From NCBI GenBank assembly GCA_037974965.1, contig JBBPFI010000013.1:496001-560000 (forward strand): DNA of 64,000 bases. The letters run 5' to 3'. The position numbers were made by a program, and so were the translations under genes. How positions within the stretch are numbered: the stretch's first letter is position 1; each line of letters begins with the position of its first letter. The stretch comes from Dacryopinax spathularia (lineage: Eukaryota; Basidiomycota; Dacrymycetes; Dacrymycetales; Dacrymycetaceae). Under the pieces are notes generated by a model, which was not told the origin of the DNA, made no database searches, and was given only the letters and a program-made list of their open reading frames with translations. Below, piece by piece: positions 6,860 through 61,350 of this stretch.

Positions 6860-7200
6860 ACCAGATTGAAGACTGCTTCAGCGTCGTTCGTTGGTTGCGA
6901 CGCCGGCTTGAGCAGGGTGCGGAGTGAGAGCGCGTTATTGGTGATGCTAGGATCTTGGACAGATGGGAGGATGCAGCGTATGGGATGAGCGGAGCGCGTG
7001 GGACGCAGAGGGGGTTTGGTGGATTTGGAGTTTGGAGTTAACTTGAATGGGGTCGGTGTATCGTTAGGGCCAAGCGCCCAATAACCCCTCAGATTGAGTG
7101 GAAACACGCGACTAACGGGCCCATGACGTGGTGCATTCGGGTGCCTAGTGCAAAACCCAAGGTACAAATCGGCCGGAAGGGCATTCGGTTTAGAGGACAT
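6610..7200 (-). CDS. Hypothetical ORF overlapping the kinase-like ORF
   Basis: A 196-codon minus-strand frame overlapping the kinase-like ORF by about 250 nt on the opposite strand. It begins with ATG at 7198-7200 and has a Pro/Thr-rich middle. No domain was recognised. The part upstream of the overlap (6863-7200) has ordinary codon use, so it may be real, but both frames being genuine over 6610-6859 is unlikely. Confidence 0.25.
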   Translation of the reverse strand: MSSKPNALPADLYLGFCTRHPNAPRHGPVSRVFPLNLRGYWALGPNDTPTPFKLTPNSKSTKPPLRPTRSAHPIRCILPSVQDPSITNNALSLRTLLKPASQPTNDAEAVFNLVQALSGAGGVRFGPFAWMSIPRVGGVLSLDSGEEEGEGSSRRREEVSKSMSTYEGLMSRTLAGRSAACTSAPPLAGGGHGRKA

Positions 7201-10780: not shown

Positions 10781-12272
10781 TCACTTGCTCAGCTCACCCC
10801 CGGCAGCCCTCTCAACCTCCCGCATGACCTTCTCCCAATCCTTCCTCTCTTTCTCCTTCTTCGCCCTCCTCTCCCGTCTTCTCTCCGCCGCGGGATCTTC
10901 CCTCCCCCTTCCTCGTCCTCTACCGTTTCCTCTTCCGCCTCTCCGGCCGGTGTCTCCCTCCTCCTCCTCCTCCTCGTCGTCGCTCGCTTCGAGCTCTGCC
11001 ACCTCTTCTCGGCGCTTCAGATAGACGTCAGCGATGAACTCCCCCACCCCTTTCTCCCCAACTTCCGCCTGCGCCCTAGCACCCCAGCGCCACTCGAACG
11101 CAACATCTCCTTCCTCCGCATCATTATCCGCTCCTCGAGCTCTCCTTCCTCCTCTAGAAGCTTGTGTAGCTGCTGGAGCCTGTGTGCCCAGGCCTGGGAG
11201 ATGAGTCCGGAGTCGGTCGAGGTAGCCGAGTTTTGTGAGGGTGGATAGGTATGTGTCGAGCGTTATGGATTTGCCGGAGGAGGTGACGAGGGGCATGTTG
11301 CCGTATACACCCAGTTTCTTGAGGTATGACCTTAGTTGGGCTGCATGGATGCGCTCAGCTCCCCTGTTGCATCGGAGAGGACAGAGAAGGACGTACGATC
11401 CGGCACCGATCGGCCATTAACCAAAACCAGACTTAAGATGACGAACATTAACCCCTGCAACGCGACGTCGTCCCCAGTCTGCCAAGCCATCATCCTCCCC
11501 GGCGCATGTTCGGGCCTCGTAGGGTCATCAGGCAATAAAGCCCAATCATCTTCTTCCACTTCTGCGAGTGATTGGTCGTGTTCCGCTGCGAGCTGGACAA
11601 CGGTCTGGGGCAGGCAAGTACGGAGCATCCATGATCTCGGGCCGGCGTTTACGACTGCCCACACCGGCATCTGGGTTAGCGAGATGAGGCGGAGGAGTGT
11701 AAGGGGACATACGTTTCTTTTTGACGCCGGTGGTGTCGTCCGGGTCTGCGGTCTCTTCTAGTACCAGCCTATCTCTGGCCCCCGCGGATTGGAGGGGGAC
11801 GAGCTCCATGCCGAACGTCTCCTTGAGGGTTCGTTCTGCAGCGGAAAAGACCATCCTGAATGATCTGGTGTGCTTGCCGAGCACTAATCGTAAGTCAGCG
11901 AAGGCCTGTGAAGTGAGGGGGAGAGAGCGTACCTTTCTTATTGATATCATCTCGCCGCAGAGGAGCGTGCTTGTATTCAGTAAAGAGTGCCAGCCGGACA
12001 AGGTCCGCAGCCATCTTCTCCTCCGCCTTTTCTCCTATCAGTGGCTATCTCGTCCAGAACGAAAGAAGGGGACGTACCGTAGTCTCATCCCCCATCTCCT
12101 CATCTCCCTCCTCCCCTTCTTGCTCTTCATCTTCTTGCTGTTCGGCTTCCTCCTCTTCCTCTTCTACGCGTCTCACCCTCCTCCTCCCACCATACCCCCT
12201 CATCTGCGTCCCTCCCTGTCTCTGACTGTGCGTTCCCCCACGTCTCTGACTTTGCGTGGCCCGAGGCGCCAT
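10781..12272 (-). CDS. NSE3: MAGE-domain protein, SMC5/6 complex subunit Nse3
   Basis: Best model: exons 12272-12078, 12026-11933, 11883-11713, 11654-11393 and 11330-10781, 423 residues. The MAGE winged-helix features are clear: MAADLVRLALFTEYKH with RRDDINKK, then PRSWMLRTCLP, GLMFVILSLVLVNG, and after intron 4 SYLKKLGVYG, TLTKLGYLDRL and FEWRWGARAQAEVGEKGV. In Nse3 these pair with Nse1 and Nse4 and bind DNA; the complex supports recombination repair in the nucleus. The N-terminus is basic then acidic, and the C-terminus is a long Arg/Glu-rich tail. Junctions 1 and 4 are the least certain: exon 1 could use a neighbouring donor, and donor 4 (GTCCTT) is non-optimal. It lies 373 nt head-to-head with the small membrane protein gene. 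Confidence 0.88.
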
Positions 12273-15137: not shown

Positions 15138-17533
15138 ATGTCTGCCGGTGCACCTCTGTCGAATATTACGAATACCCCCACACGCCGCCGGAAGATGAAA
15201 AGGGAGAGTCCGCCAACAATGAAGTTGGAGGACTTGCTGCACATAACCCCCACGTCCTCGTCTCCGCCTGACCGCCGATCCGCGACGTCGTCTCGCAGTT
15301 CGGCTAAGTCTCACGACCGCACTCCGCAACATGCCCACTCCTTCCCGTCTCTGTCTCCTCCAGCCATCCTGCATGCGAATCCGTTCATAGATGCTGAGCA
15401 TACGACGGATGAGTGGAAAAGCATTGTCTCTTCGCTCGGACTTGACTCGCATCTTGGCCGTAGCTATTCTGCCCCGGAGTCTTTCCCCACTTCCGACTAC
15501 ATTGACCCTGCAGTAGCATCTAACGCTGTGTCCGAGTCAACCTCTCCTCCGAAACCGTTTCCGTATGATGATGTATATGCTCGCAGGATCGCGTTAAGAG
15601 CTGCTCTTTACTGACTTTTCAGGACTTTCTTTCCTTTTCTCCCTCTCGTCACGCCGACGAAACTCCTGACTCTCCGTCTCTTCGACGTCTCTCTGGATCC
15701 AAGAACTTAACATACGATCCTCTAGACTCTTCTTTCTCCTGGTCTGACACTCCCTCTCGTGCCTCTAGCTCGGACAAGCCCTCCTCTCCTGTACCAGAAG
15801 AACGACCTCGTCCGCTTCTCTACAGCCCCAACCCGTTTCTGGGTCACTTCGAAGTGCGCTCTGTGTCACCAATGGCGACCGAAACGATTCCGTCGATCTC
15901 GCTCTCGAGACCTGCTCCTGAGTTTCATACTGCCAACCTTGTTGCTGCTGCCGAGACCATGGTGCAGACTGTCATTCTTGATGGTCGAGCTGGGCATTCT
16001 CGCTCAAGCTCATCCTCCAGCCAGAAGTCGACCACATCGCTTACTGCCGAAGGTTATCTTACTGTTCTACCATCCTCACACAAAAGGCACGAACGCGTCA
16101 ACACACCAGTCTCAGCCCTCCGCAGCACCGCCGAATGGGAGAAGGAAGGCCTCGACTACGTTCCACCTTCACCCGCGCCCTCCTCGGCTTTGACTTCTTT
16201 ATCCTCCCAAGATGAGTCTCCTGAGAACCAGCAGGCACTTGCAGCAAACAAACGACCTCCTGCTGTCCAACCGGCACAGGAGCCGCCTACCAAACGAATC
16301 CGATTGTCGCTGCCCGACCCCACCCCCACTTCACGATCGCAACCTACCCCATCTACCTCAGTGAAGAGAACACGTCGCAAGAGGATGTCTTCCACTAGCA
16401 CGTCGACATCCGCCTCGGCCAGGGCAGCTCGAACGTATACATCAAGCACCCTCACCTCCATGACCGCTTCCCAGCATTCCGCGCGTGCCGATTATAGCTC
16501 CAGCACTGTCCAAACCACAAGCAGTAGCGCAGGCTCGGACGAACCTCAGCCGGCAACGGTATCATCCGACATATCGACCGACGAGGCTTCCTCTCCGGTG
16601 CTTGAGCAGGATCCAGCGGTCTTCGATGAGAATGGCGCATATATTCGACGAATCTTCCCGGACGACGTCCCGATTGTGGAGGACTTCGCTCTCTTCTACC
16701 GACGCTGGCCGCTGTCATCGTTCTTCCGCGACGACGACGAGATTGGCAAACAAGCACTCCGTCAAGCGTAAGTCTTCGCGCATGGGCATAGAATTCAAGC
16801 CTAATAGTTGTGTAGGGCGATCACCGTCAGAAGACCTCAAGGTGGATGGACATACAACGACCCACGTTCGCCCTACGACCTCTATACTCCGCGCTTAGTG
16901 AAGGGCCTGGGCAAGGATAAGGTCGCGATGTGCCCGATCTGCATCGAACCCTTCAGTCGAGGAGGAGAAGGTAAAAAGGTCGCATATAAGACCAAGGTCT
17001 CCGCATATAGTGAGTCACTTCCTCATCTACAGGCATAAGCCTCATTGACCATCTTTGCAGAGTACGTCTCGTTCTCCTCAGGCTCCTATGCCATGCTAAC
17101 CTATTACGTCCCTTCAGCTATCATATGCAGCACCATCATGGTGAGCGCCCATCCACATGCGAAAAACCGACTGTCCTGACCGCTTGTGTAGGGATCTCCG
17201 CCCGGACGGGACGACCATTCTACCCGCCGCTGGCTTTTCGCAGCGCTGAGCGCAACGTAGCTGGCAGTAAGAACATGAAAGACGTCATGCGCGAGGGGCG
17301 CTGTCATCGATGCAAGAAATGGATCCCGCTCGACGGAGTACGGTCTGGAGATGTAAAGGTAGGCCCGTCCCTCTAGCAAAACAGACCTTGTACTGAGATT
17401 ACTCCAGGTGAAGGAGATCTTCTGGTGGAAGCACGCGACAAAATGTCACGGAGACGACGATCCAGTAGAAGATACTCATCCCCACTTCGAGGACAACCTA
17501 TATCGCGCATATAAGTCATTAAGCGCTCAGTGA
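15138..17533 (+). CDS. Transcription regulator with Rua1 C-terminal zinc-binding domain
   Basis: Exons 15138-15572, 15623-16767, 16816-17009, 17061 (one base), 17118-17140, 17192-17358 and 17408-17533 give 696 residues. The N-terminal 500 residues are Ser/Pro-rich and probably disordered. The C-terminus matches the Rua1 family of fungal regulators: GGWTYNDPRSPYDLYTPR, MCPICIEPF, a YHMQHHHGISARTGRPF segment, GRCHRCKKWIPL and FWWKHATKCH, giving Cys/His pairs for zinc. Rua1 in Ustilago maydis activates glycolipid synthesis; the target here is unknown. The YHM segment can only be kept in frame if a single adenine at 17061 is an exon between two normal-sized introns (51 and 56 nt). An upstream in-frame start at 14997 is possible but lies in the divergent promoter. 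Confidence 0.85.
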
Positions 17534-17855: not shown

Positions 17856-20652
17856 ATGGCTAAGAAGAAAACAAACGCAGCTGCAAAAGCTGCCAAGAAG
17901 GCGAAAGCCGAGAAGAAATCTGCAAAGCGGGAAGAAAAGGTTACGAAGAAGGGTGCCAAGGACGAGCAGGATGACCAGGATCTGGAGACGATCCTGGAGG
18001 ACGTGCGCACCCTTTCTTGCTTGGAGCGAACGGACCAACGTCTGACTCGCCGTTGTATATAGATGCGGAAGAAGTGGGAGGAAGTAAGCGATCGAATTGC
18101 GCTCTCTGGCTTTCGCTCATGGCTCGCTAGCAACATCGTGTCACGGAAGAGACTGTCGAAGGCCCTCCGAGCCGAAGAGCTAACGCGACCTTCACGCCTG
18201 ATCCCAATGGCAACTACCTATGGAGTATTGGTATGCCTGTAGCGACGTGACGTGGAGCATGGCTAACATGCCGCTGTCAGGATAGGCGGAGAGTACTTCA
18301 GCGATGATGGCAAAGCTGTACGTCCTTCCGTGGCCCGTGCTTCTCCCGCTCACGCAGTCTTAGTACTTCTACAACGATGTGTACCGTTACTCTCCTGAGA
18401 AGGTGCGTATGTACTATTTAATGGTGGGGCTCGTACTGAAAGCCAAATAAGGACGAATGGCGTCGATATACGTCTCCCACCTGTCCTGGGCCGCGTTCAG
18501 CACATGCAGTGGTTGCAATGCCGCAAGGAGGCGGAAAGCTGTTCCTCTTCGGTATGCATGTATTGTCCCACCCCTTCATCAGCTGCTCACCATCTCTTAG
18601 GTGGAGAATTCTCGTCCTTACATCAGACAACCTTCCACCACTACCGAGACTTCTGGGAGTTCGACATCACGACGAGTTCCTGGGAGAGGATTGACACCAA
18701 AGTTCGCCCCACAGCACGTTCAGGTCACAGGTGCGGACAGCTGGACCGATATCTACTCATTGGAGCTCACACCGCGTACAGAGTGGCCGTCTGGAAGCAT
18801 TTCGTCATCCTGTTCGGCGGATTTTACGATCCTGGAATACGAAGTAAATGTTTCTCAGCTGCACTTCGCGGTCCACTGACCAAAAGCAGCGAATTATTTG
18901 AACGACCTTTGGTTGTTCGACACTCAGACGTACAAGTGGCAGCAGATCGAGTTCAGGGATAATGACCGGAAACCATCGTACTTCACCGAGCACTCACGCT
19001 AAAGGGGTGTCGTGCTGACGAACTTCGTAGACCACGTAGCGGATTCTCGTTCCTTCCGGTCCCAGAAGGGGTTATCCTGCATGGTACGCTGTTTTGTCGC
19101 CGCCGCATTAAGCATGGCTCATCTGTCCTGCAGGTGGCTATTGCAAGGAGTATGTCAAGGGCAAGCGCGCACAAGGCATAGCCTTGGAGGACACATGGCT
19201 CTTACGGTCGGTTCGCTGGCATCGGCCCTCCACATCCGGCTGACTAGCATCGAAGCATGGATATGGACCCCAAGCTAATCAAGTGGGAACGTCGAAAGAA
19301 GGCAGGCTATCCGCCATCCGTCCGCTCAGGCTGCACCATGGCTTATTGGGCAAATCGGAGCATGGGCATCCTGTTCGGCGGTGTGTACGATAATGACACG
19401 GACGAGGAGACTCTGGAGAGTACCTTTTATAATGACATGTACGCCTCTCCGAGTGCTGGATATAACAGTACTGATGGATCTCTAGGTACGGCTATCAAAC
19501 AGCTGGAAATGGTCGATGGGTATCGCTTATGTTGAAGCGACCAAAGCGGGCTGGAGGCAGAAGGAAGAAGTCGCAACCATCTGTGCAGCCAAAGTCTGGG
19601 CAGGAGGACGAAGAGAAAGAAGACGGAAGCGATGTTGAGGGCGGCACGTCAGACTCAGATGTATGGAAATTATTGTTCGTGCCAGTCTGATCCTGACTCT
19701 TATGCAGGTGGAGACCGTCCCGCCGAAACCTGCTCAACCGGCCAAACCGGCACGACCTCCCGAACTGGACGACACGCACGACGAGAACGAGCCTTACGAT
19801 CCCGAGAGTTCTCGCCCTCTACCGCGGTACAATGCAATGCTAGCAGTCCTACGGAACACCCTCTACATGTACGATACATATCTTTCCTTTCAAATCCATA
19901 ATCTGATTGTCGCTCAGCTACGGTGGGATCTACGAATCCGGTGCCCGAGAATACACGCTCGACGACTTCTATGCCCTCCAGCTAGACAAGATGGACCGAT
20001 TCTTCTGCCTCAGGCCTAATACCGTCGTATTCGGGAACGAAGAGAGCAGCGAGGACGAAAGCGACAGTGACGACAGCAGCGACGAAGGCAGCTTAGAGCT
20101 GAACAAGGACGAGGAGGACGAGGATGGTCAAGGCGAGGAGCGGAAGGAAGCTACCTCACCCCAGCCGGAACCTGTCGTACCGGATGGAGAGGATATCCGA
20201 GCGAGGGCCAATGCTTTCATGGGAGTTGCGAAGGACGCGACTCGTTCGGCTGAGGAAGTTATCAGCACGCCCCTTCCGGGGGAGACGATAGCGATGTTCT
20301 ATGACCGATCTCGTGCGTTCTTTCCTGTCCTCTGTCCTCCAGCAGTTATGTTGATGCGCCGTCAGGAACATACTGGGCCCAAAAGGCACTCGAGATCACT
20401 CAAAACAGAGGCAAGCAGGGTCGCAGGGACGGATTCGAGCTTGCTCAGGAACGATATGGTAGGTCCTTCTCCCTGTCCTATACAGCCCAAAGTGCGTCGC
20501 TGACTGGGTACGTGGGAACAGCTGCGTATAAACCACTGTTGGAGGAAGTGGAGCGGATCCTTGCTGAGGCTGGGCTGGACGAGGAGGAGATCAAGCGAAG
20601 CGCTGCTGGAGGGGCGGGTGGCGGGGTAGGGCAGAGCCGGAATCGGAGATAA
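17856..20652 (+). CDS. KEL3: Kelch-repeat protein with DUF4110 (KEL3/KLHDC4-like)
   Basis: Seventeen exons: 17856-18002, 18063-18083, 18131-18230, 18286-18317, 18364-18402, 18452-18551, 18601-18730, 18782-18843, 18890-18977, 19031-19083, 19134-19206, 19256-19438, 19486-19660, 19708-19868, 19918-20316, 20346-20458 and 20522-20652, 668 residues. The Lys-rich start (MAKKKTNAAAKAAKKAK) is typical of the family. Kelch blades follow: WSIGGEYF, GPRSAHAVVAMPQGGGKLFLFGGEF, ARSGHR with ILFGGFYD, SPRSGFSFLPVPEG with ILHGGYCKE, and SGCTMAYW with ILFGGVYD. An acidic linker precedes a DUF4110 C-terminus (PLPGETIAMFYDR, YWAQKALEITQNRGK). The family is conserved from yeast to man and not well understood. Exon 2 is 21 nt, and exon 16 has a CAGCAG (NAGNAG) acceptor allowing one extra Ser. 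Confidence 0.92.
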
Positions 20653-20769: not shown

Positions 20770-22267
20770 CTATCGTCGCGCTTTCGCGCGTTTTGGTGGC
20801 GGAGGCCGTGCTTCTTCCTCCTCATCTTCATCATCGTCCGTACTCTCATCCGCACTCCGCTCCGCTTCCTCAATATCATCCTCCCAATCCTCCTCATCAC
20901 CCTCGTCTTCACCGTCCGGCACCGCATCCTCATCATCCTCTTCTCCCTGTCCATCCTCCTCGTCATCCTCGTCATCATTATCCTCGTCATCGCCGGCGGT
21001 CTCGCCACGCTCTGCCTTCTTGCGCGCTACGTTCCGTTCTTGTTCTACCCTCCTTTCCCGTCTTATCCGTTCGCGCTCTTTGACCTCCTTTTCTTGGGCT
21101 TTCTTTTCTTGTTCGGTTTTATGCACTACACCACGCGTCAGTACGAATTCAACCACCGCAGTAAAGGTCGCCGAAAGAGGAAAGATAGAGATGGGAGGAC
21201 AGGGGGGGAAGGACTGACCAAACTCATGAAAGATAACCGCCCCCTCCTTCCCCGGCACGCCCTCGGCAATCTTCACAAGCCTCAACTCCATCCTCGGCCC
21301 CACCTCCTCCAGCCTGACAGCCCTCTTCCTCCCCTCCTCCGCACCGCCACTCCTCACACTCTCCCCATCTCCCCCCTCAGCCCTCGCACGATCCTTATAC
21401 CACCCCACCCTTCCCCCAGCACCGGAAGGAGCGAGAGACGAAGAAGGGAGGTCGATCTCTTCCCCTTCACTTTGCACGCTGGAGGCGGATTCGTACCCGT
21501 CTTCGTTGAGGATGAAGTCGGCTACGTCTTTCACGTTTCCGAGGTCCAGGCCAGGGCGGAGAAGTTTTCGGACACGGCGGGAAACGCCAAAGGAGCGGAT
21601 GGTGATTATGTAGTGCCTGAGCTGGATCGTGCCCGTTCCCGCCGAGTAAGAGAGTAGGACCACTCTCCTCGCCGACGAGGGCTTCAGCGTAAGAGGCGAT
21701 AAAGGCGGGAAAAGGCTCTGCAGAAGCTTGGCGACAAGCCCCAACTGAGGCTGCTCCTTATCCCCCACCGGGAACTTGGAAAGCACCATCAGCGGCGGAG
21801 TCCTATACTCCGTCCCCTCTCCCCTCGGTTTCCGCTTCGACGTCCTTATATCCGCAATTGTCGAGTACCTCTCTATACGGAACGTTGCGGTGGGTCCGGC
21901 GGGGGTGCGGATGATGCGGAGGTAGGGCGATTTGGGCGTTAGGGTGAAGAGGAGGATGTGGGATACGGAAAGGGAGGGTGCGAGGGTTAAGTAGTCTTTT
22001 AGCTTGTTGCGCGTTCGTTCCTGCCATCTCGCGTCAGCACCCGCACTGCACTGCTCTCCTTCTCAGGAGAGGGGGTAAGAAAAGACGTACTCGGAGACGG
22101 GTAGCGGTGTTGGGCTCCATCACTTTTCGCATATCCCTCACCAGAGCTGATAGCGCTGGTCCGACTTGGCCATGTTTGATAATGAACGACTTCGGCGTTG
22201 CTGCTTCGCTTCCAGGAGGAGGAGCAGGTCCCTTATTATGAGTACGGTGCTTTCGTCGTCGGGCCAT
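20770..22267 (-). CDS. SSF1: Brix-domain ribosome biogenesis factor SSF1/Peter Pan
   Basis: Exons 22267-22091, 22020-21219 and 21125-20770 give 444 residues. Diagnostic features are the basic start MARRRKHRTHNK, TPKSFIIKHGQVG, PNTATRLR joined by intron 1 to ERTRNKLKDYL, then RTPPLMVLSKFP, LLSYSAGTGTIQLRHYIITI and FHEFVHKTEQEKKAQEKE spanning intron 2. SSF1/PPAN acts in the nucleolus in 27S pre-rRNA processing for the 60S subunit. The C-terminal 60 residues are nearly all Asp/Glu, ending in a short basic patch (PPPPKRAKARR). It diverges from the amidohydrolase gene across 397 nt. Confidence 0.93.
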
Positions 22268-24827: not shown

Positions 24828-27210
24828 ATGCAGCTGCTCGTCATTGCTGGTTGGTCGCTCGCTGCCCTCTCATCTGCGCTGGTGCGGGCAGCGCCGTCCC
24901 CCAGCTCGCTGGGGAGCGACATCACGCTTCTCTTCCAGAACGACCTGAACTGTGCGTCCCCATACCTCCCTTACATGAACCTAAGGCTAACGAATAAGCA
25001 GGGACGAACTACGCCTCCCACTCCTCCGCGCTCCTCCTCTCCACCCCCGTGAATAGCAGCACCGCCATCTCCGCCTGCGAGTCGCTCTCCGAATACCTCA
25101 TCTCACCCTCCAACCCCAATTTCGCAACGGACCTAACCCACCAACTCGCCTACCTTGCCTATACGGGCCAGCACTCCTTCCTCCAGCGGCATTGGGTCGC
25201 TCCCCGGGAGGATGGGACCTGCCAGGCTGTAGGGGCGTTCGGGACGGTCGTAGCTGCTGACTGTAGCGAGAGACTGCCCGCTCTGTGCTCGCAGACCGCG
25301 AGCTGGGTTATAACGGGTGAAGGGACGGTGCCGGCGAAATGGGACATGTTCCCGCCCGTGGAGAGCAAGTACGAAGTTGGCGTTCAGAGCGGGAACTTGA
25401 GCATTACGGGGTGCGTCCCTCCTCTCTCCCCACCATCTCCACAGCGCAGCAGGCTAATATCCTCGGTGCGTTAGGACGCGAGACCAACTCTCATTCCGTT
25501 TCCTCGGCGTACCCTACGCAAACCCTCCCGAGCGATTCGAGTACTCGACCGTCTACACCGGCCCCTCCGACATAAACGCCACATCCTACCAATCCCAATG
25601 CACCCAAGTAGGCGGTATGGGCAACGGGAGCGAGAACTGTCTTTTCCTGAACATCTGGACTCCCTACCTGCCCTCCTCGCCCTCTCCGCCGACGAAGGCG
25701 CTCAAGCCGGTGCTGCTGTGGATCCATGGTGGTGCTTTCTTGAATGGCATGTCCTCTGATCCGACGTTCGATGGTGGTGCTCTTGCGAGTCGGGGGGACG
25801 TGGTCGTGGTGACGATCAACTATCGTCTCTCAACCCTTGGGTTCCTGGCCTTACCGGACGGGAAGACGAACGGCTCGTACGGCGTAGCGGACGCAGTGAC
25901 GGCACTGCAATGGGTTCAGCAACACATCTCCGCCTTCGGTGGTGATCCCGCACGAGTGACGATCAGCGGGCAAAGCGCGGGCGCAGCAGCAGTCCGTGTC
26001 CTGCTGGGCAGCCCACCTGCCGACGGGCTGTTCGCGGGCGCCATTCTGCAGAGCGACCCTGTCGGGACTGGACAGAGTGCACCGTGGACGTATTATAGCA
26101 CTGTGGAGGAGGCGTACGATTCTACTACTAAGGATATCCTCGCGCTTACGGGGTGTAACGCCACGAATGACCTGGAGCAGCAGCTGAGCTGCTTGAAGGC
26201 GTATGATCCGCTGCAGCTTGTAAACCTTACTACGGTGGCCAAGTGAGTGTGCATATATGCTTCATGCGAGGCAGTTGGCTGACATGACCGTAGTGCACCG
26301 ACGGTTGACGGCACGTATGTGACTACGACGGAGCTGCCACTTACTGGGAGCGGGCCGCTGGCGAAGGTTAACGTCATGATCGGCAATATGAGGGATGATG
26401 GTGCTGCCCTGATTGGATATCCGAAGACCGGAGAGAGCCTGTTCGACGCGACCGTAGCTGCTAGCGGGTATGTCCGCGATCCATCGTGGGAACAAAGGTA
26501 ATCTAACATGTTTTCAGGTACTCGAACGCCTCCGTCCAGGCCTTACTCGATACGGGCCTTTTCCCTGTCCCGACGGGACCGAACAGCACCCTCGACATCT
26601 TCAATGTCACAGCACGCATCGCGACTGACTTCACATTCCGCTGCTTGTCCGAGGCGACAGCCGTATCGGCGTTGAATCACAGCTTGTTTAAGAGCCTGTG
26701 GTACTACCAATTCGAGCGGAGTTATCAACTGAATTGGTGGAGTCCGAACTTCCCCGTTTGTACGCCGCCAGTCACCGCGCAGTTCCCGAACGGCGATCCA
26801 AGTCAGGAGTATTTTCAGTAAGCATCGCATCATCTCATTCGTCCTGTTCGAACAGGCATGCTGAGAGAGTAATCAGCTGCCATTCTGGGGATCTTTACCT
26901 CGTGTTCGGATCCCTGAACCGAGCCGCCCTGCCTTACCGGGACGAGAACGACCTGCCCTTCGCGCAAGCCGTGCTCGACCGCTGGGCATCCTTCATCCGC
27001 TCGTACAACCCCAACCCCAACCCGGCATACCTCACCGTGCGCGGCTATACAAACACGTACAACACGCTTGTCCAATCCGGCGTATGGAAGCCGGTGGGCG
27101 CAGTAGAGGGTGCAGAAATCAGAGTGCTGAGCGTGCCGGAGAGTAGCAAGCCGTGGCAGGAAGTTCAAGCCTGTCAGGCGCTTAACCTCAGCTTGTCCAC
27201 TTTCGGATAG
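24828..27210 (+). CDS. Secreted type-B carboxylesterase 1
   Basis: Exons 24828-24951, 25002-25410, 25475-26242, 26294-26467, 26518-26817 and 26877-27210 give 702 residues. A signal peptide (MQLLVIAGWSLAALSSALVRA) opens the protein. Residues about 25-175 form a Cys-containing, N-glycosylation-rich extension not found in ordinary esterases. The alpha/beta-hydrolase part follows: FRFLGVPYANPPERF, oxyanion WIHGGAF (residues about 262-264), nucleophile elbow SGQSAGAAA with Ser near 345, and the His in CHSGDLYLVFG. Family members hydrolyse carboxylic esters such as lipids or esterified plant phenolics; the real substrate is unknown. It is the upstream copy of a tandem pair with carboxylesterase 2. 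It has one intron more, at 26818-26876, just before the catalytic His. Confidence 0.93.
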
Positions 27211-27668: not shown

Positions 27669-29969
27669 ATGGCGCCTCTACTTCTTGCCGCTGTCTTTGG
27701 CGCGCTCCTCAAGGTGACATCTGCTGCCGTCAGCCCTTCGGCGCTCGGGACGGACTTGACGGTCCTCTTCCAAAACGACTTGAACTGTAAGCCTTTGGCA
27801 AGCCGCCGACGATAGGTCTTAGCTCACCTTTATACCAGGGACGACGTTCGCAGACCATCAGGCTGCTATCCTGCTGTCCACTCCGCTGAACGCAAGTGAT
27901 GCCGTAGCGGCTTGTGCAGCACTCAACGAGACTCTGCTCTGGCCCCACTCGCCCTCTTTCACTTCCGACTTCAAAACCTTGCTCCAATATGAATATGAAG
28001 AGCGTAGGGACGGTATATCGAAAAGGCAACTGTATTGGTCGTCAGCTGTGAACGGCAGCGTTGTCGCACTCAAGGCGACACGCGAGACCGAGGCAGTTAG
28101 CAAAAGCAAGAAGCTGCCTGTGCTTTGCGCGGACTCGGCGGGGTTTACTTCCACTGCAAATGGTACTCTGCCCACTCAATGGGAGTTCAACCCCCCGTCC
28201 AATAAAAACTGGCAAGTGCAAGTAGCAAGCGAAAACTTGACCTTCGTCGGGTACGTATACGACTACAGCTTCCCGCGACCTACGTCTGACAGGACCGTAG
28301 TACTCGGGACGAGCTGTCATTCCGTTTCCTTGGCGTACCGTATGTCAACCCGCCAGAACGCTTTGCCTATTCTACGCCCTACATCGGGCCCAGCGAAATT
28401 GATGCGACTGCCTATCGCCCAAATTGTCTCCAAGTTAGCCCTTTTGCAACCGGGTCTGAGGACTGCCTGTACCTGAACATCTTTACACCTTACCTACCAT
28501 CCGACCCTCCGACGTCCACGAAACTGAGGCCGGTTTTGTTCTGGATCCATGGAGGCTCTTACCTCGAAGGCACGGGCAACGATCCCACTTTCGACGGCGG
28601 TAGTCTTGCTTCTCGCGGTGACATCGTGGTCGTTGCGATCAACTATCGTCTGTCGACGCTCGGCTTCTTGTCTCTTCCAGATGGGCATACGAACGGAAGC
28701 TTCGGTATTGGAGACATGGTCAATGGTCTGAAGTGGGTTCAGCAGCACATTAGGGCATTTGGTGGCGACCCCTCGCGAGTGACGCTCGCAGGGCAGAGTG
28801 TGGGAGCGACCAGCGTCCGCGTCATTCTTGGCAGTCCACCCGCCGCTGGGACTTTCCAGGCTGCTCTCCTTATGAGCGACCCGGCTGGCGGTAGTCTTGC
28901 TTCAGCCTGGACAACATATGATACAATACAAGAGGCGTACGAGAGCGTGACTGTGCCTATCTTGGCTGCGACTGGATGCAACAGCACGACGAACTTTGCA
29001 TCCCAGCTAAGCTGTTTGAAGGCGATCGATCCTCTGACGCTTATCAACCTCACTGCCGTTGCTTCGTGAGTCTGTTACACACGGCCGCCATCTCTGAACT
29101 GACTATAATCTAGTGCTCCGGTGGTTGACGGATTTTATGTACCAACCGACCAGCTCCATCTTGACGGCAGTGCTTATGCGGCCAAGGTTCCAGTTTTGAT
29201 GGGGCAGATGAAGGATGATGCCGCGGCTGCCCTGGTTCCGCAGCCGCCGAATGACACCCTCGCTCAATACGTCCAGTCCAGTTGGGGGTGAGTCATTCTG
29301 TCCTCCAGCGATTCCCTCGTTAACTAGAAGTTCAGTCTCGATCCAGCCACCATTCAAGATATCCTTGGGAGCAACCTTTTCCCCGAGCCAACTGGAAGCA
29401 ACACCACCTTAGACATATACAACACGACCACCCTCATCGGGACCGACATAATCTTCCGCTGCTTCGACCAAGCGACCGTCTTCGCAGGCCGGCAGAACAA
29501 CATCTTTCCCAAAGCATGGTACTACGAGTTCCAGCGGTCCTATCAGCTGAACTGGTTCAATCCCGTCCCACCGCTGTGCACTCCACCTATCACGGCAGAC
29601 TTCCCGCTAGGCGACCCGAACATGGAGTACTTCAAGTGTCACGAGGGCGAGCTGTACTACACGTTCGGCACGCTTGGGCGGGCAGCACTTCCGTTTAGGG
29701 ATGCGAACGACCTGCTATTTTCGCAGCAGATGCTGGATCGCTGGTCGTCCTTCGTGAGGACACATGACCCGAACCCTGATCCGGAGTATTTGAAGGTCAG
29801 GGGGTATGAGACAACACTGGAGGTGTTCAAGAAACAGGGTAAATGGGCTCCAGTGGGGGAGAGCAACAATACGGATGTGAGACTGCTGAATGTGCCGGAG
29901 AGCGCGAAGCCGTGGCAGGACTTGTCGCAGTGCACGCTGCTCAACATGAGCCTCACAACCTTCGTCTGA
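27669..29969 (+). CDS. Secreted type-B carboxylesterase 2
   Basis: Exons 27669-27786, 27839-28250, 28301-29065, 29114-29287 and 29336-29969 give 700 residues. A signal peptide (MAPLLLAAVFGALLKVTSAA) and the same N-terminal extension as copy 1 are present, though several Cys differ. Catalytic landmarks are FRFLGVPYVNPPERF, WIHGGSYLEG, GQSVGATSVR with Ser near residue 343, and KCHEGELYYTFG for the His. The first four introns lie at the same places and phases as in copy 1, and the fourth exon is 174 nt in both; the fifth intron is absent. Many Asn-X-Ser/Thr sites fit a secreted glycoprotein. It arose by tandem duplication with copy 1. Confidence 0.93.
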
Positions 29970-30212
29970 AGCAGCTTCATGTATCCATATTCGCAATAAA
30001 GTATCTTCTGTTCGCAATTATTCTTGACGGTCGCGTTGGATGTAATCGTTGTTCGGTGAGACGCACGTCGCCTTCTTCATGTTCACCTCGAAAAGCCTCC
30101 GATGCTTCTCCTTAGTGGCGGTGCAGTAGCTTGCGCGTTCCCAATCGTCGTGTATGCGTACCCCGTACCCACCTGCACGTCCGCACCCTCTGCCTCACCA
30201 ACCAAAGCAACA

Positions 30213-31343
30213 ATGGACCACTTCCCTCTCTCCTGGGGCCGCCCTGTCAGTCTCTATACTATAGCCGTTGTGAGAGAAAGCTGACAGTGCAACAGAGAAA
30301 TGAAGCTGTCGACCTGTACTCCACCTACCCCGTGAATGAGCGACAGAGACATGGGCCGAGGAATGACGCGTTCGCTGAGGGGGTGCAACATACACAGTGC
30401 GGTATACTTCATTAACTCGATGAGGCGTGAGCTCATGGCGGCTCCAGGCAACCGATTGTGACTGGTACTTCCGTACTGGCGATCCGGTACAAGGACGGGA
30501 TTATGATGGCTGCTGACTGCCTTGGTGCGCCTCATTCGATGAAGTACAGGCTGGCGTCAGTGGGGCTGACAGGAGTTGACAGGCTCGTACGGCTCCATGG
30601 CGCGGTTCAAGGACGTCTCCCGTTTGCACGCAGTAGGGCAGTACACGCTCATCGGCGCAGGCGGCGACCTCTCAGACTACCAATACCTGCAACACATCCT
30701 CAACAGCCTGATGTGCGTCCTTCTTCCATCCCAACTTACTCTGTAGCATACTGAGTATAGAATTCAGGATCGATGAGTACACGGCTGATGATGGACACAA
30801 GCTGGGGCCGGACGAGATTTATCATTATCTTTCGCAGGTCATGTATGCTCGCAGGAGCAAGATGGACCCTCTGTGGAACACGCTCCTTGTTGGCGGGTTT
30901 AAGGATGGGAAGTCGTACGTGCCTTCCGCCTCCGACTCGCTCTAGCGATGGTATGCTGATCGCAGGGACAGATTCATTGGCTATGTGGATTTACTTGGTG
31001 TAACCTACACCGCTTCGACGCTCGCAACCGGCTATGGCGCGTACATTGCTCTGCCATTGCTCAGGAAAGCGGTCGAAGGGAGGGAGCACGAGCTGACAGA
31101 AGAAGAAGCACGGGCAATCATCACCGAGTGCATGAAAGTGCTGTTCTACCGGGACGCTCGTTCACTGAATAAGGTGCGGACTCGGTCTAACTCGCCTCAT
31201 GATTTGCGACTGAGAAAGACCGCGCTTAGTTCCAAATCGCTACTGTGACGGAGAGGGGAGTCGAGATTGGAGATGCGATCTCTGCCCAGACGGAGTGGAG
31301 TTTTGCGGAGAAGCTGTCGAGCTTTGGGCCGAAGGCGTCGTGA
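30213..31343 (+). CDS. PRE4: 20S proteasome beta-7 subunit
   Basis: Exons 30213-30245, 30296-30396, 30448-30524, 30583-30712, 30768-30914, 30966-31173 and 31230-31343 give 269 residues. MDHFPLSWGRP is the typical beta-7 start; HTQQPIVTGTSVLAI is the propeptide cleavage region, followed by DGIMMAADCLGSYGSMARF, GAGGDLSDYQYLQ and DLLGVTYTASTLATGYGAYIALPLL. The residue at the mature N-terminus is not a catalytic Thr in this subunit, so it is structural; its C-terminal arm clamps the two half-proteasomes in yeast. Exon 1 is only 33 nt. Confidence 0.96.
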
Positions 31344-37942: not shown

Positions 37943-39681
37943 TCAGAGCTCTTTCTTTCCCCTCTGGATTTCCTCTAGCTTGTCCATCGCCTTCAGCCTT
38001 TCTGGCAGAGTAGGGTGCGAATAATGATATGCCGAGTACCTGTGCCCCGGCTCAAATCAGCGTACTGCTTCCAAAGCCAAAGGCAAGTGGCGAGAGAGAA
38101 GACAAAGAGAGAAAAGAAAGAGGAGACGCACAGCCAATCCACATGCAGCGTGCTCAGGTTCTTGACGTGCAGCTTTGTGAGCGCCTCTGCCAGCTTCTCC
38201 TTATACTCCCCTCCCAGGCCCACGGCAAACGCATCTGCCTGATACTCGAACAGCCTCGTCACGGCATTCATCGCAAACTGGACCAGATGCTCCACAGGCT
38301 GCAAAAACATCTGGTACAGCAAAAAAGTGGGTAAGATCGGTGCTGGCCTCGTTATCGGCGTGTCCAGAGGCAAAGGGGGAAACCCGAACGAGGGGAGGAA
38401 GGTTCGGGAGACTAGGAACGGGGGGAAGGAGGAGAGGAGGAGGAAGATGTGGATTTGGCTGATGAGGAGGAGTTTGGTGGGGTGGGACATTGACCAGTGC
38501 CCCAGTTCGTGGGCGAGGACGGCTTCGACTTCTTCTTCGGTGGATTGGGCGATGAGGGTGTCGAAGATGACGATGTGCTTGCTCTGCGTCGTCCGTCAGC
38601 TTTGGCCGTATCTACGCAGCATGTTCCACAACTAAAGGGAGGAAGACAGGAAGAGAGGCGAAGCGGGAGGACGCACCCATGGCAAACCGTAGAAATACGC
38701 ATTCGAGTGACTGCTCCTCTTACTCCCATCAATCTGATACAAATGCTTCAACGGGAACCGCAGCCTCCCCGCAAGACTCTCGATCCTCCTCCTCAGGCTA
38801 CTCCCCTCCTCCAACGGGGTCAGCTTATTGAAAAGCGGCTGAATGACCAGCGGATACAACACGACCAGCACAAGCTGGAAAACGAGCATGAACCCCATCA
38901 GGTAGTAGACGAAGGATTGGCCGAAATGGCGGATGATGGAGAGGAAGGCGGCGAGGAATGGGACGCCGAGGAAGATGCCGACGAGGAAGGACTTTAGGAG
39001 GTCGGTTATGAATGTTAGCCGGGTCGTTTTGTTGAAGCCGTGCGATTCCTCGAGGACGAAGGTGTAGTAGTAGTCCCAGGGGAGGGACGTCACTACAGAG
39101 ATGAGGCCGAGGATGCCGGCGAAGATGATGCTCTGAGCAATCTATCCCTCAATCAGCCTCCTGTCCCCCACTTCTTCTCCAATAGGAAGGCAAGAGAAGG
39201 GCAGCGTACCTCCCGATCCCCGCCATAACCGAAATACGCCAACACCCCAGCTGCCGCCCCCCAAGCCCAAGCATACAAGTCGAAATATATGCTCAGCCCG
39301 CCCTCCACCAACCCCCACAAATTCTTATACAGCGTAAACCAAGCCTTGTCCTTCCCATACGCCTGCGACTTCTTATACGTCTCGGGGGGGAAATGGTCTT
39401 TCAGCGAAGCAGGCGGTTCCGGCTTCGAATAATTACCTAACTGTCGGATCCTGTCATCCGCATCTCACATCAGTCCGGGCTCGTGAGATGGGAGAGGGAG
39501 AGAGGGAAGGGACGCACAGGAGGAAGTTCTCGAATATCCCGCTGAAGAGCGTGAGCCCTAGGGCGATGGACTTGAAGTCGTGTGGAGATTGGACGATCCG
39601 GGTCAGGGGGAGCTGGAAGGAACGTTGCATCCTGTTGAAAGTGCCCAGAATGGGCGAGAGCAGGGAGCGGATCACGTCCAT
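37943..39681 (-). CDS. STE24: CAAX prenyl protease STE24 (M48 zinc metalloprotease)
   Basis: Exons 39681-39518, 39450-39210, 39141-38677, 38583-38132 and 38039-37943 give 472 residues. SQAYGKDKAWFTLYKNLWG, LPWDYYYTFVLEESHGFNK, KRSSHSNAYFYGLPWSKHIVIFDTL and the zinc site HELGHW (His near residues 315 and 319), with a later FEYQADAFAV Glu ligand, are diagnostic. The C-terminus YSAYHYSHPTLPERLKAMD is also typical. STE24 sits in the ER membrane with several spans and cleaves prenylated CAAX proteins, including the mating-pheromone precursor, and clears clogged translocons. The divergent promoter to the coiled-coil gene is 367 nt. Confidence 0.96.
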
Positions 39682-59406: not shown

Positions 59407-61350
59407 ATGACGACGGCGAATCACCACACCACGCTCGCCGTCTCGCACGACCCGTCGCCGGAAGCTCAGATGCGACTTCGGTCGTCTCACCTTAAGCATG
59501 CCGTCGACCTCTTCGGCATGCTTAACAGTGTCATGGACTCGACCGCGCCCAACAGGCGTAACATCACACACAGCACCGATCCAGATGTCAAGGTCTCCGA
59601 CGCTGCCGTGGAGATCCACAAGCTCGAGACGGAACTCGACCGCGGCATGCGCAGCCTCCACGTATCGTTTAACGAGTCCAAATGCTATATGGAGAGGCTT
59701 CCGGATGATATCCTCCTGCATATATTCCAGATTCCGTTCAACGAGGAGTGGCGTCACCAAGTGAGATGGTCCATCACTATTTCGCATGTATGCACTCGGT
59801 GGAGGAGGATCGCTGTTCGCACGGCTGCGATGTGGGCGATGGTGTGTTTCTCCGCTCGGGCCTCATTACCGCCGCAAGTCAGTACGATCTATCGGTCGCG
59901 GTATGACGAGGACGGGCGATATCGGCGACCTCACAACCGGTGGTCGAACTCTCAGATGCTGACTTTCCTCCTCCGATCGCGAGGGACAGGCTTGGCGAGC
60001 GAACTCAAGATCGGCCCAGAACTGAACAACGACTCTATTCCTCAATTCGTCAATCGATTTGTCGATCTATGCGCAAGTCGAACGGACAATCTTACTTTCA
60101 CGTTCAAGCAGACACCGGCACATCCGAAGACCATGGCCGTCATCATGCCCTGTATGCGCGTTCTGAGCGGCCACCTCCGGCGACTCAAAGTTTCTTTTCC
60201 CACCTTCACCGAGTATGACATGGGAGGGCATATGTCACCGCTGTTCCAGACGTGCATGCCCTGCCTGGAGGAAGTCGCATTCCACAACGTCCCGCTCACA
60301 CGACACAACGGCGACTATCGCATGCTGGCAACGTGCAAGAAACTCAGCATCGTCGCCACGCCACAAGCATACTTTTCCCCGGAAGTGTTCGTCCCTCTCC
60401 TCAGATCCGCTCAGCAATTACGAGAGCTCCGGATCGACATCTCTACATCTTGGCTCATGCCGCCAAGTCCGACACAAGCACCACGTTCGCTGGCATGCGA
60501 GCGCGTGGTCCTTCCGTACTTGGTCAAGTACGTCGTTGCCACCGGTGCATGGATGGAACGCGCGTTCGAGTTCTTCGCCGCACCTCGTTTGCGCTGGCTC
60601 GAGATGGATACGGAACGGTGCGATATCCCGCCGTGGACGTTTGATGCTCCGATCTACGAGTTCCTCGAAATCTCAAATCCACCGGTCGAGACTTTCGTCG
60701 TCCGGCATCCCTCCAACATCATCTCCCACCTCCTCCGTCAACTACCTACAATCCGACAAGTCGTTTTCCTGAACGCAGAGGCCGACTATGGATCAGCATA
60801 CAAACAAATCCTGAATGAGATGACCCAGTCCGTGTTCAGACTTGAGTCTAAACCCATCTGTCCCGAGCTCGAAGTCCTCTGCACCGATATGGAGCTGGCC
60901 GAGCCCACGCACCTGTACTCACTGTACGACTTCACCGCGATCCGGAACGAGCACGGTATGGGCATCAAGCGGCTCTTCTTTCGCCCTGGTCCAGTCTGGG
61001 ACTTTAAGGTCGTGCCTCCCCAGGCGCCGCAGTGTGGCAGCAGCCCACCGCTCACGGACGAGACTGGCTCCTCGCCTGGATCGGAGGCATCGATGCAGGA
61101 CGCAGGTTCCGTGTACGAGACTGGCTATCGGCGATGGCCCACGCCCGAGCTATGGCTCGACTACTTCGAGCCCGAGCCCGTGCGCGGAGACAGGCTTATC
61201 GCACAAGAAGTCGGCCAGTTTATCATGGGCAACCACATCTTCGACCTCGAGACCGATCGGTGGGAGGACGACACGGCCATCGTCCGCCGGGAAGAGCGCT
61301 TCTTCCACGAGCACATGACACGGCGGGACGGGTTTGTCAGTGCGAGTTGA
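59407..61350 (+). CDS. F-box protein, intronless
   Basis: One open frame of 647 residues. An F-box motif lies at about residues 95-140 (RLPDDILLHIFQI, SHVCTRWRRIAVRTAAMWA), preceded by a helical stretch (AAVEIHKLETELDRGMRSL). The rest has leucine-rich-repeat-like spacing (LRRLKVSF, CLEEVAFHNVPL, LRELRIDIS, LRWLEMD) as in many agaricomycete F-box proteins, which recruit substrates to SCF ubiquitin ligases. The target is unknown. Unlike nearly all neighbours it has no intron, which is common in this expanded family and may reflect retrocopying, though no poly-A trace or target-site repeat was seen. Confidence 0.85.
   Translation: MTTANHHTTLAVSHDPSPEAQMRLRSSHLKHAVDLFGMLNSVMDSTAPNRRNITHSTDPDVKVSDAAVEIHKLETELDRGMRSLHVSFNESKCYMERLPDDILLHIFQIPFNEEWRHQVRWSITISHVCTRWRRIAVRTAAMWAMVCFSARASLPPQVSTIYRSRYDEDGRYRRPHNRWSNSQMLTFLLRSRGTGLASELKIGPELNNDSIPQFVNRFVDLCASRTDNLTFTFKQTPAHPKTMAVIMPCMRVLSGHLRRLKVSFPTFTEYDMGGHMSPLFQTCMPCLEEVAFHNVPLTRHNGDYRMLATCKKLSIVATPQAYFSPEVFVPLLRSAQQLRELRIDISTSWLMPPSPTQAPRSLACERVVLPYLVKYVVATGAWMERAFEFFAAPRLRWLEMDTERCDIPPWTFDAPIYEFLEISNPPVETFVVRHPSNIISHLLRQLPTIRQVVFLNAEADYGSAYKQILNEMTQSVFRLESKPICPELEVLCTDMELAEPTHLYSLYDFTAIRNEHGMGIKRLFFRPGPVWDFKVVPPQAPQCGSSPPLTDETGSSPGSEASMQDAGSVYETGYRRWPTPELWLDYFEPEPVRGDRLIAQEVGQFIMGNHIFDLETDRWEDDTAIVRREERFFHEHMTRRDGFVSAS

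Follow-up and report, generated by a model that had tools for sequence, protein, structure and literature searches.

A predicted single-nucleotide exon in a Rua1_C-domain regulator gene of Dacryopinax spathularia

Can a lone adenine, set between two ordinary introns, make up a complete coding exon in a basidiomycete regulator gene? The question is posed by a gene on the plus strand of the window (the whole 64-kb stretch of DNA that was analysed), in which two complete sets of intron signals lie one base apart within the region encoding a conserved C-terminal domain. The relevant features are as follows:

15138-17533, plus strand: Rua1_C-domain regulator gene, 696 aa, seven coding exons counting the predicted 1-nt exon
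15573-15622, plus strand: intron 1, 50 nt, splice score at the 51st percentile of 84 reference introns
16768-16815, plus strand: intron 2, 48 nt, splice score at the 8th percentile of 84
16816-17009, plus strand: exon 3, ending in phase 1 after SAY plus A, and holding the CPIC cysteine pair
17010-17060, plus strand: intron A, 51 nt, with donor GTGAGT, branch CATTGAC and acceptor TTTGCAG
17061, plus strand: predicted single-nucleotide exon (A), the middle base of an Asn codon, AAC
17062-17117, plus strand: intron B, 56 nt, with donor GTACGT, branch TGCTAAC and acceptor CTTCAG
17118-17140, plus strand: exon following the 1-nt exon, reading (C) YHMQHHH..., a histidine cluster
17141-17191, plus strand: intron 3' of the YHMQ exon, 51 nt, splice score at the 32nd percentile of 84
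17258-17260, plus strand: premature stop reached on skipping the 1-nt exon (17009 spliced directly to 17118); the last exon junction lies 98 nt further downstream
17359-17407, plus strand: last intron, 49 nt, splice score at the 21st percentile of 84

The one-base junction and its splice signals

With 17061 taken as an exon, the spliced frame is open throughout, from the ATG at 15138 to the TGA stop at 17531-17533. The C-terminal part of the predicted protein then matches the Pfam family Rua1_C (PF14616), scoring above the gathering cut-off across the domain (111.5 bits against a cut-off of 27, covering profile positions 3-122 of 122). In Ustilago maydis, Rua1 has been described as a transcription factor of the zinc-finger type controlling the synthesis of cellobiose lipids, and the conserved C2H2 motif of a Sporisorium homologue is placed at the N-terminus (PMC7673458); given that placement, the passages of PMC7673458 that concern the motif do not tell whether the Cys and His residues of CPIC and YHMQHHH belong to the same finger. 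From the residues themselves, we infer that zinc would be bound jointly by the CPIC pair and the YHMQHHH histidines.

At the junction, exon 3 closes with TAT A at 17009, A17061 follows, and the sequence resumes with C TAT CAT ATG CAG from 17118, such that joining 17009-17061-17118 yields SAY-N(AAC)-YHMQ; the spliced product expected with the 1-nt exon is TCCGCATAT-AAC-TATCATATG. The coordinates, motifs and lengths given for both introns in the initial annotation agree with a direct reading of the DNA. For scoring, models of the donor, branch and acceptor were rebuilt from 84 introns lying outside the Rua1_C gene but within the 64-kb window; these reference introns are themselves predictions, and the percentiles are thus biased towards consensus-like introns. 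Intron A has a total splice score of 14.3 (64th percentile), with its donor at the 65th, its branch at the 8th and its acceptor at the 98th percentile: the branch, 12 nt from the acceptor, is weak, yet those of introns 2 and 5 are weaker. Intron B scores 15.5 (85th percentile), and its branch lies 18 nt from the acceptor. Donor, branch and acceptor are therefore complete on both sides of 17061. A single intron spanning the same 108 nt would be unusual in this window, as only one of the 84 introns is at least 100 nt long and five are at least 90 nt. Both sets of intron signals, the requirement for a single base and the fit to the domain can all be established from the sequence, and the reading of 17061 as a one-nucleotide exon is very probably the correct one for this locus.

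A further acceptor lies at 17130 (ATGCAG) and scores 15.8, against 15.5 for the in-frame acceptor at 17117; being strong but frame-breaking, it may be a site of mis-splicing or alternative splicing.

Domain fit, alternative splice models and chance

The length of the junction was probed through the score of the Rua1_C match, and a gain of exactly one base gave the best domain score when set against nine splice alternatives. Deletion of the junction residue lowers the score from 111.5 bits with Asn to 103.2, the two-residue junction SD (SAYSDYHMQ) gives 107.4 and the junction KYVS, from a 10-nt exon, gives 104.6, while longer inserts give 99.4, 98.3, 96.9 and 96.4; overall, deleting the residue or adding others costs 4-15 bits. 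An in-frame deletion through an intron at 16997-17130 reduces the score to 83.2 bits, and treating 17010-17117 as one 108-nt intron leaves a frameshifted product with an early stop and 28.4 bits. The identity of the residue matters far less than its presence. Among the 11 residues substituted at the junction (W, N, A, S, T, R, D, H, I, Y and F), the highest scores were obtained with W (112.8), N (111.5), A (111.2), S (111.1), T (111.0) and R (110.9), followed by D and H (both 110.8), I and Y (both 110.2) and F (109.8), and this narrow spread indicates that the column is tolerant. Hence, the proposal that the domain requires Asn stands insofar as one residue is required, but Asn specifically is not, since it ranks second of the 11; it is, nonetheless, the top scorer among the residues that can be encoded by A-x-C (N, S, T and I).

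The initial annotation had also held that any other choice of sites either breaks the frame or needs a 30-nt intron, and this proved incorrect: of 2154 one- and two-intron models enumerated with GT donors, AG acceptors and introns of 40-150 nt, 385 restore the frame without a stop. These include a single intron at 17014-17117, producing SAYSDYHMQ, and a 10-nt exon flanked by introns of 51 and 47 nt. The 1-nt model nevertheless comes first among the 385, both by its weakest splice element (3.7 versus 2.0 for the next model) and by its mean intron score (14.9 versus 13.0), and this rank, together with the best domain fit, supports the interpretation of 17061 as a one-nucleotide exon. The runner-up by both measures likewise keeps the single base 17061, although from an earlier first donor at 16971, which leaves the domain 13 residues shorter with a score of 86.6 bits. 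Models with GC donors, which fall outside the count of 2154, entail introns of at most 36 nt or the loss or replacement of domain residues near the junction.

The acceptor and branch of intron A and the donor of intron B together give a splice-score sum of 14.75 around A17061. Of the 406 AG-N-GT sites that the two strands of the window contain (120 bases per end omitted), only the 17060/17062 pair attains at least this value. When the interior was shuffled with dinucleotide composition preserved and the outer donor, branch and acceptor held fixed, some 1-nt exon arose in 1019 of 20,000 shuffles for introns of 45-70 nt, and in 1458 of 20,000 for introns of 40-70 nt, with none reaching the score in either case; if any frame-restoring micro-exon of 1-28 nt is admitted, 6091 of 20,000 shuffles contain one, and a single shuffle reaches the score. 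Similarly, the window has 120 intron-like spans of 95-120 nt; some 1-nt exon can be placed within 13 of them, and 17010-17117 alone reaches the score. The signal pair around A17061 exceeds chance expectation.

These results bear on three other explanations of the locus. One-base indels are a frequent type of assembly error, and the outer sites at 17010 and 17117 together score 15.0 (81st percentile), so that a single 108-nt intron, combined with a base missing from the adjoining exon through an assembly or sequencing error or a true frameshift mutation, would be formally adequate; it would, however, call for an intron of a length reached by only one in 84 in the window, and for an acceptor and a donor to have arisen by chance at precisely the one-base spacing, delimiting two introns of normal size, which none of the 20,000 shuffles reproduced. 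We regard this explanation as very unlikely. A single 104-nt intron at 17014-17117, with the donor moved by 4 nt, restores the frame without recourse to a micro-exon, adds one residue and costs the domain merely 4.1 bits; against this, its donor GTCACT scores -0.9 (0th percentile of 84) compared with 5.7 for GTGAGT, its length is again unusual for the window, and the strong acceptor/donor pair inside it would have to be a coincidence, and we consider it a shade less probable still. The lowest probability attaches to a larger middle region, of which two variants keep the frame: an exon at 17061-17070 (SAYKYVSYHM), whose donor GTTCTC scores -1.9 (0th percentile) and whose domain match falls to 104.6 bits, and a 53-nt intron at 17010-17062 with 17063-17117 translated (18 further residues), whose acceptor GCAGAG scores 0.3 (1st percentile) and whose domain match falls to 96.4 bits.

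A gene finder trained on the window alone (21 gene models and 89 introns of mean length 59 nt), in which exons of any length were permitted and protein data were not used, gives partial backing for the exon. In the final run, a 1-nt exon was called at 17061 and in none of the other gene models (21 in total); this run resumes after the acceptor at 17130 and stops at 17260, a structure ruled out by the Rua1_C domain. The intron penalty was set by hand and then varied over five values with the Rua1_C gene either in or out of the training set, and the 1-nt exon at 17061 was called in eight of these 10 settings, three of them resuming at 17118 and five at 17131 (acceptor 17130). With the gene held out and a penalty of -10, the full proposed 3' structure to the stop at 17533 was recovered. 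In the remaining two settings (gene held out, strong penalties) no gene was called at the locus. The loosest penalty introduced four further 1-nt exons, at 6916, 25513, 30740 and 38014, and from -10 onwards there were none.

Predicted splicing and comparison with known single-nucleotide exons

In the arrangement that we favour, two ordinary U2-type introns, each of normal length for the window, would lie one base apart within the conserved C-terminal domain, leaving A17061 as a constitutive one-nucleotide coding exon. We infer that introns A and B would each be recognized by intron definition and excised consecutively: with one base between them, the 3' site CAG of intron A and the 5' site GTACGT of intron B could hardly be bound together. 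Whichever intron is excised first, the mRNA would read AAC (Asn); in the model, the donor of intron B stays strong, scoring 6.10 with intron A present and 6.39 once it has been removed. Removal of 17010-17117 in one step would truncate the protein to 621 aa at the stop at 17258-17260, whose distance from the last exon junction would suit nonsense-mediated decay. Given that CPIC lies upstream of the junction and YHMQHHH downstream, the two halves would be joined only when the one base is included. The exon could conceivably act as a splice switch, with inclusion joining the Cys/His halves and skipping giving the 621-aa product and mRNA decay; we think this improbable but, if true, the dose of the transcription regulator would be determined by how efficiently the two introns are spliced out in turn. 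The gene may also be annotated incorrectly by automatic pipelines. An origin of introns A and B by duplication was considered and rejected, as their sequences are not alike (z -0.15).

Nuclear single-nucleotide exons are already known in plants and in Fusarium, and 17061 adds another candidate, in this case from a gene for a transcription regulator whose introns are very short. The documented spliceosomal examples are few, those among the literature found being plant APC11 and VPS55 and Fusarium CYP621A. The last of these, reported with RNA reads by Nelson and Syed, was termed by them the first 1-nt exon of any fungal gene and the second altogether (PMC12940212); that of VPS55 had been described earlier, in a plant survey (PMC8831610). 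CYP621A resembles the present locus closely: it is a fungal nuclear gene in which a phase-1 boundary is unable to join the next exon, and a conserved motif is recovered through one base lying between AG and GT, as the middle position of a split codon (PMC12940212). Unlike 17061, the base is G (AGGGT) rather than A, and the gene encodes a P450 enzyme of an ascomycete; moreover, 18 RNA reads and 20 orthologues stand behind CYP621A (PMC12940212), whereas 17061 is a prediction from DNA. APC11 of Arabidopsis (PMC4674806) and VPS55 (PMC8831610) likewise have a 1-nt exon flanked by two introns, although they are plant genes and experimentally verified. In Arabidopsis APC11, the base is A, as at 17061, and sequential splicing by intron definition has been suggested, with Guo and Liu judging simultaneous splicing of both introns very unlikely; the intron region around the base extends over 422 nt, compared with 108 nt here (PMC4674806).

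The compactness of this 108-nt two-intron unit places it next to stwintrons on the scale of fungal intron crowding. As in [D1,2] stwintrons, two fungal U2 introns are in contact, consecutive excision by intron definition would be expected and one-step mis-splicing is a risk (PMC12403724). In stwintrons, however, the donor of the outer intron is interrupted by the inner one and nothing exonic is retained (PMC12403724, PMC5639578), whereas here the GTACGT donor is unbroken and a single base remains. A stwintron parse of 17010-17117, in which an inner intron would interrupt the donor, branch or acceptor of an outer one, was rejected: both introns are contiguous and complete, and full excision breaks the frame. 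Organellar genomes offer a more distant parallel, namely, a lone A that separates a pair of group II introns in the mitochondrial rnl of Ophiostoma, with a similar earlier report from Ceratocystis (PMC12308204), and a single-nucleotide exon in placozoan mitochondrial cox1 (PMC5436844). These share with 17061 one base between two introns, this being A in the fungal rnl, but the introns concerned are self-splicing, of group II or group I, rather than spliceosomal (PMC12308204, PMC5436844) and, unlike 17061, the single-base exon of rnl is not protein-coding (PMC12308204). Among the matches listed from the open-licence literature, there was no single-nucleotide exon from a basidiomycete. Searches for relatives of the Rua1_C junction, covering viral and prokaryotic contigs only, gave 2 (viral) and 14 (genome) contig stretches with protein patterns, none of them confirmed, and 0 and 0 matches with DNA patterns.

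Neighbouring genes in the window

The downstream neighbour of the Rua1_C gene, at 17856-20652, has 17 predicted exons within 2.8 kb, including micro-exons of 21 nt (18063-18083) and 16 nt (18302-18317). Searches of the 64-kb window for Rfam families and tRNAs gave no matches. Two adjacent models on the same strand, at 24828-27210 and 27669-31343, carry carboxylesterase domains (PF00135; 225 and 216 bits, respectively, for their longest exons), and they are possibly a tandem duplication. Further Pfam matches, again in the longest exons, were to the MAGE homology domain (10781-12203), Brix (20770-22267), CAAX protease/M48 (37943-39681) and an F-box-like domain (59407-61350); these four neighbours look like ordinary eukaryotic genes.
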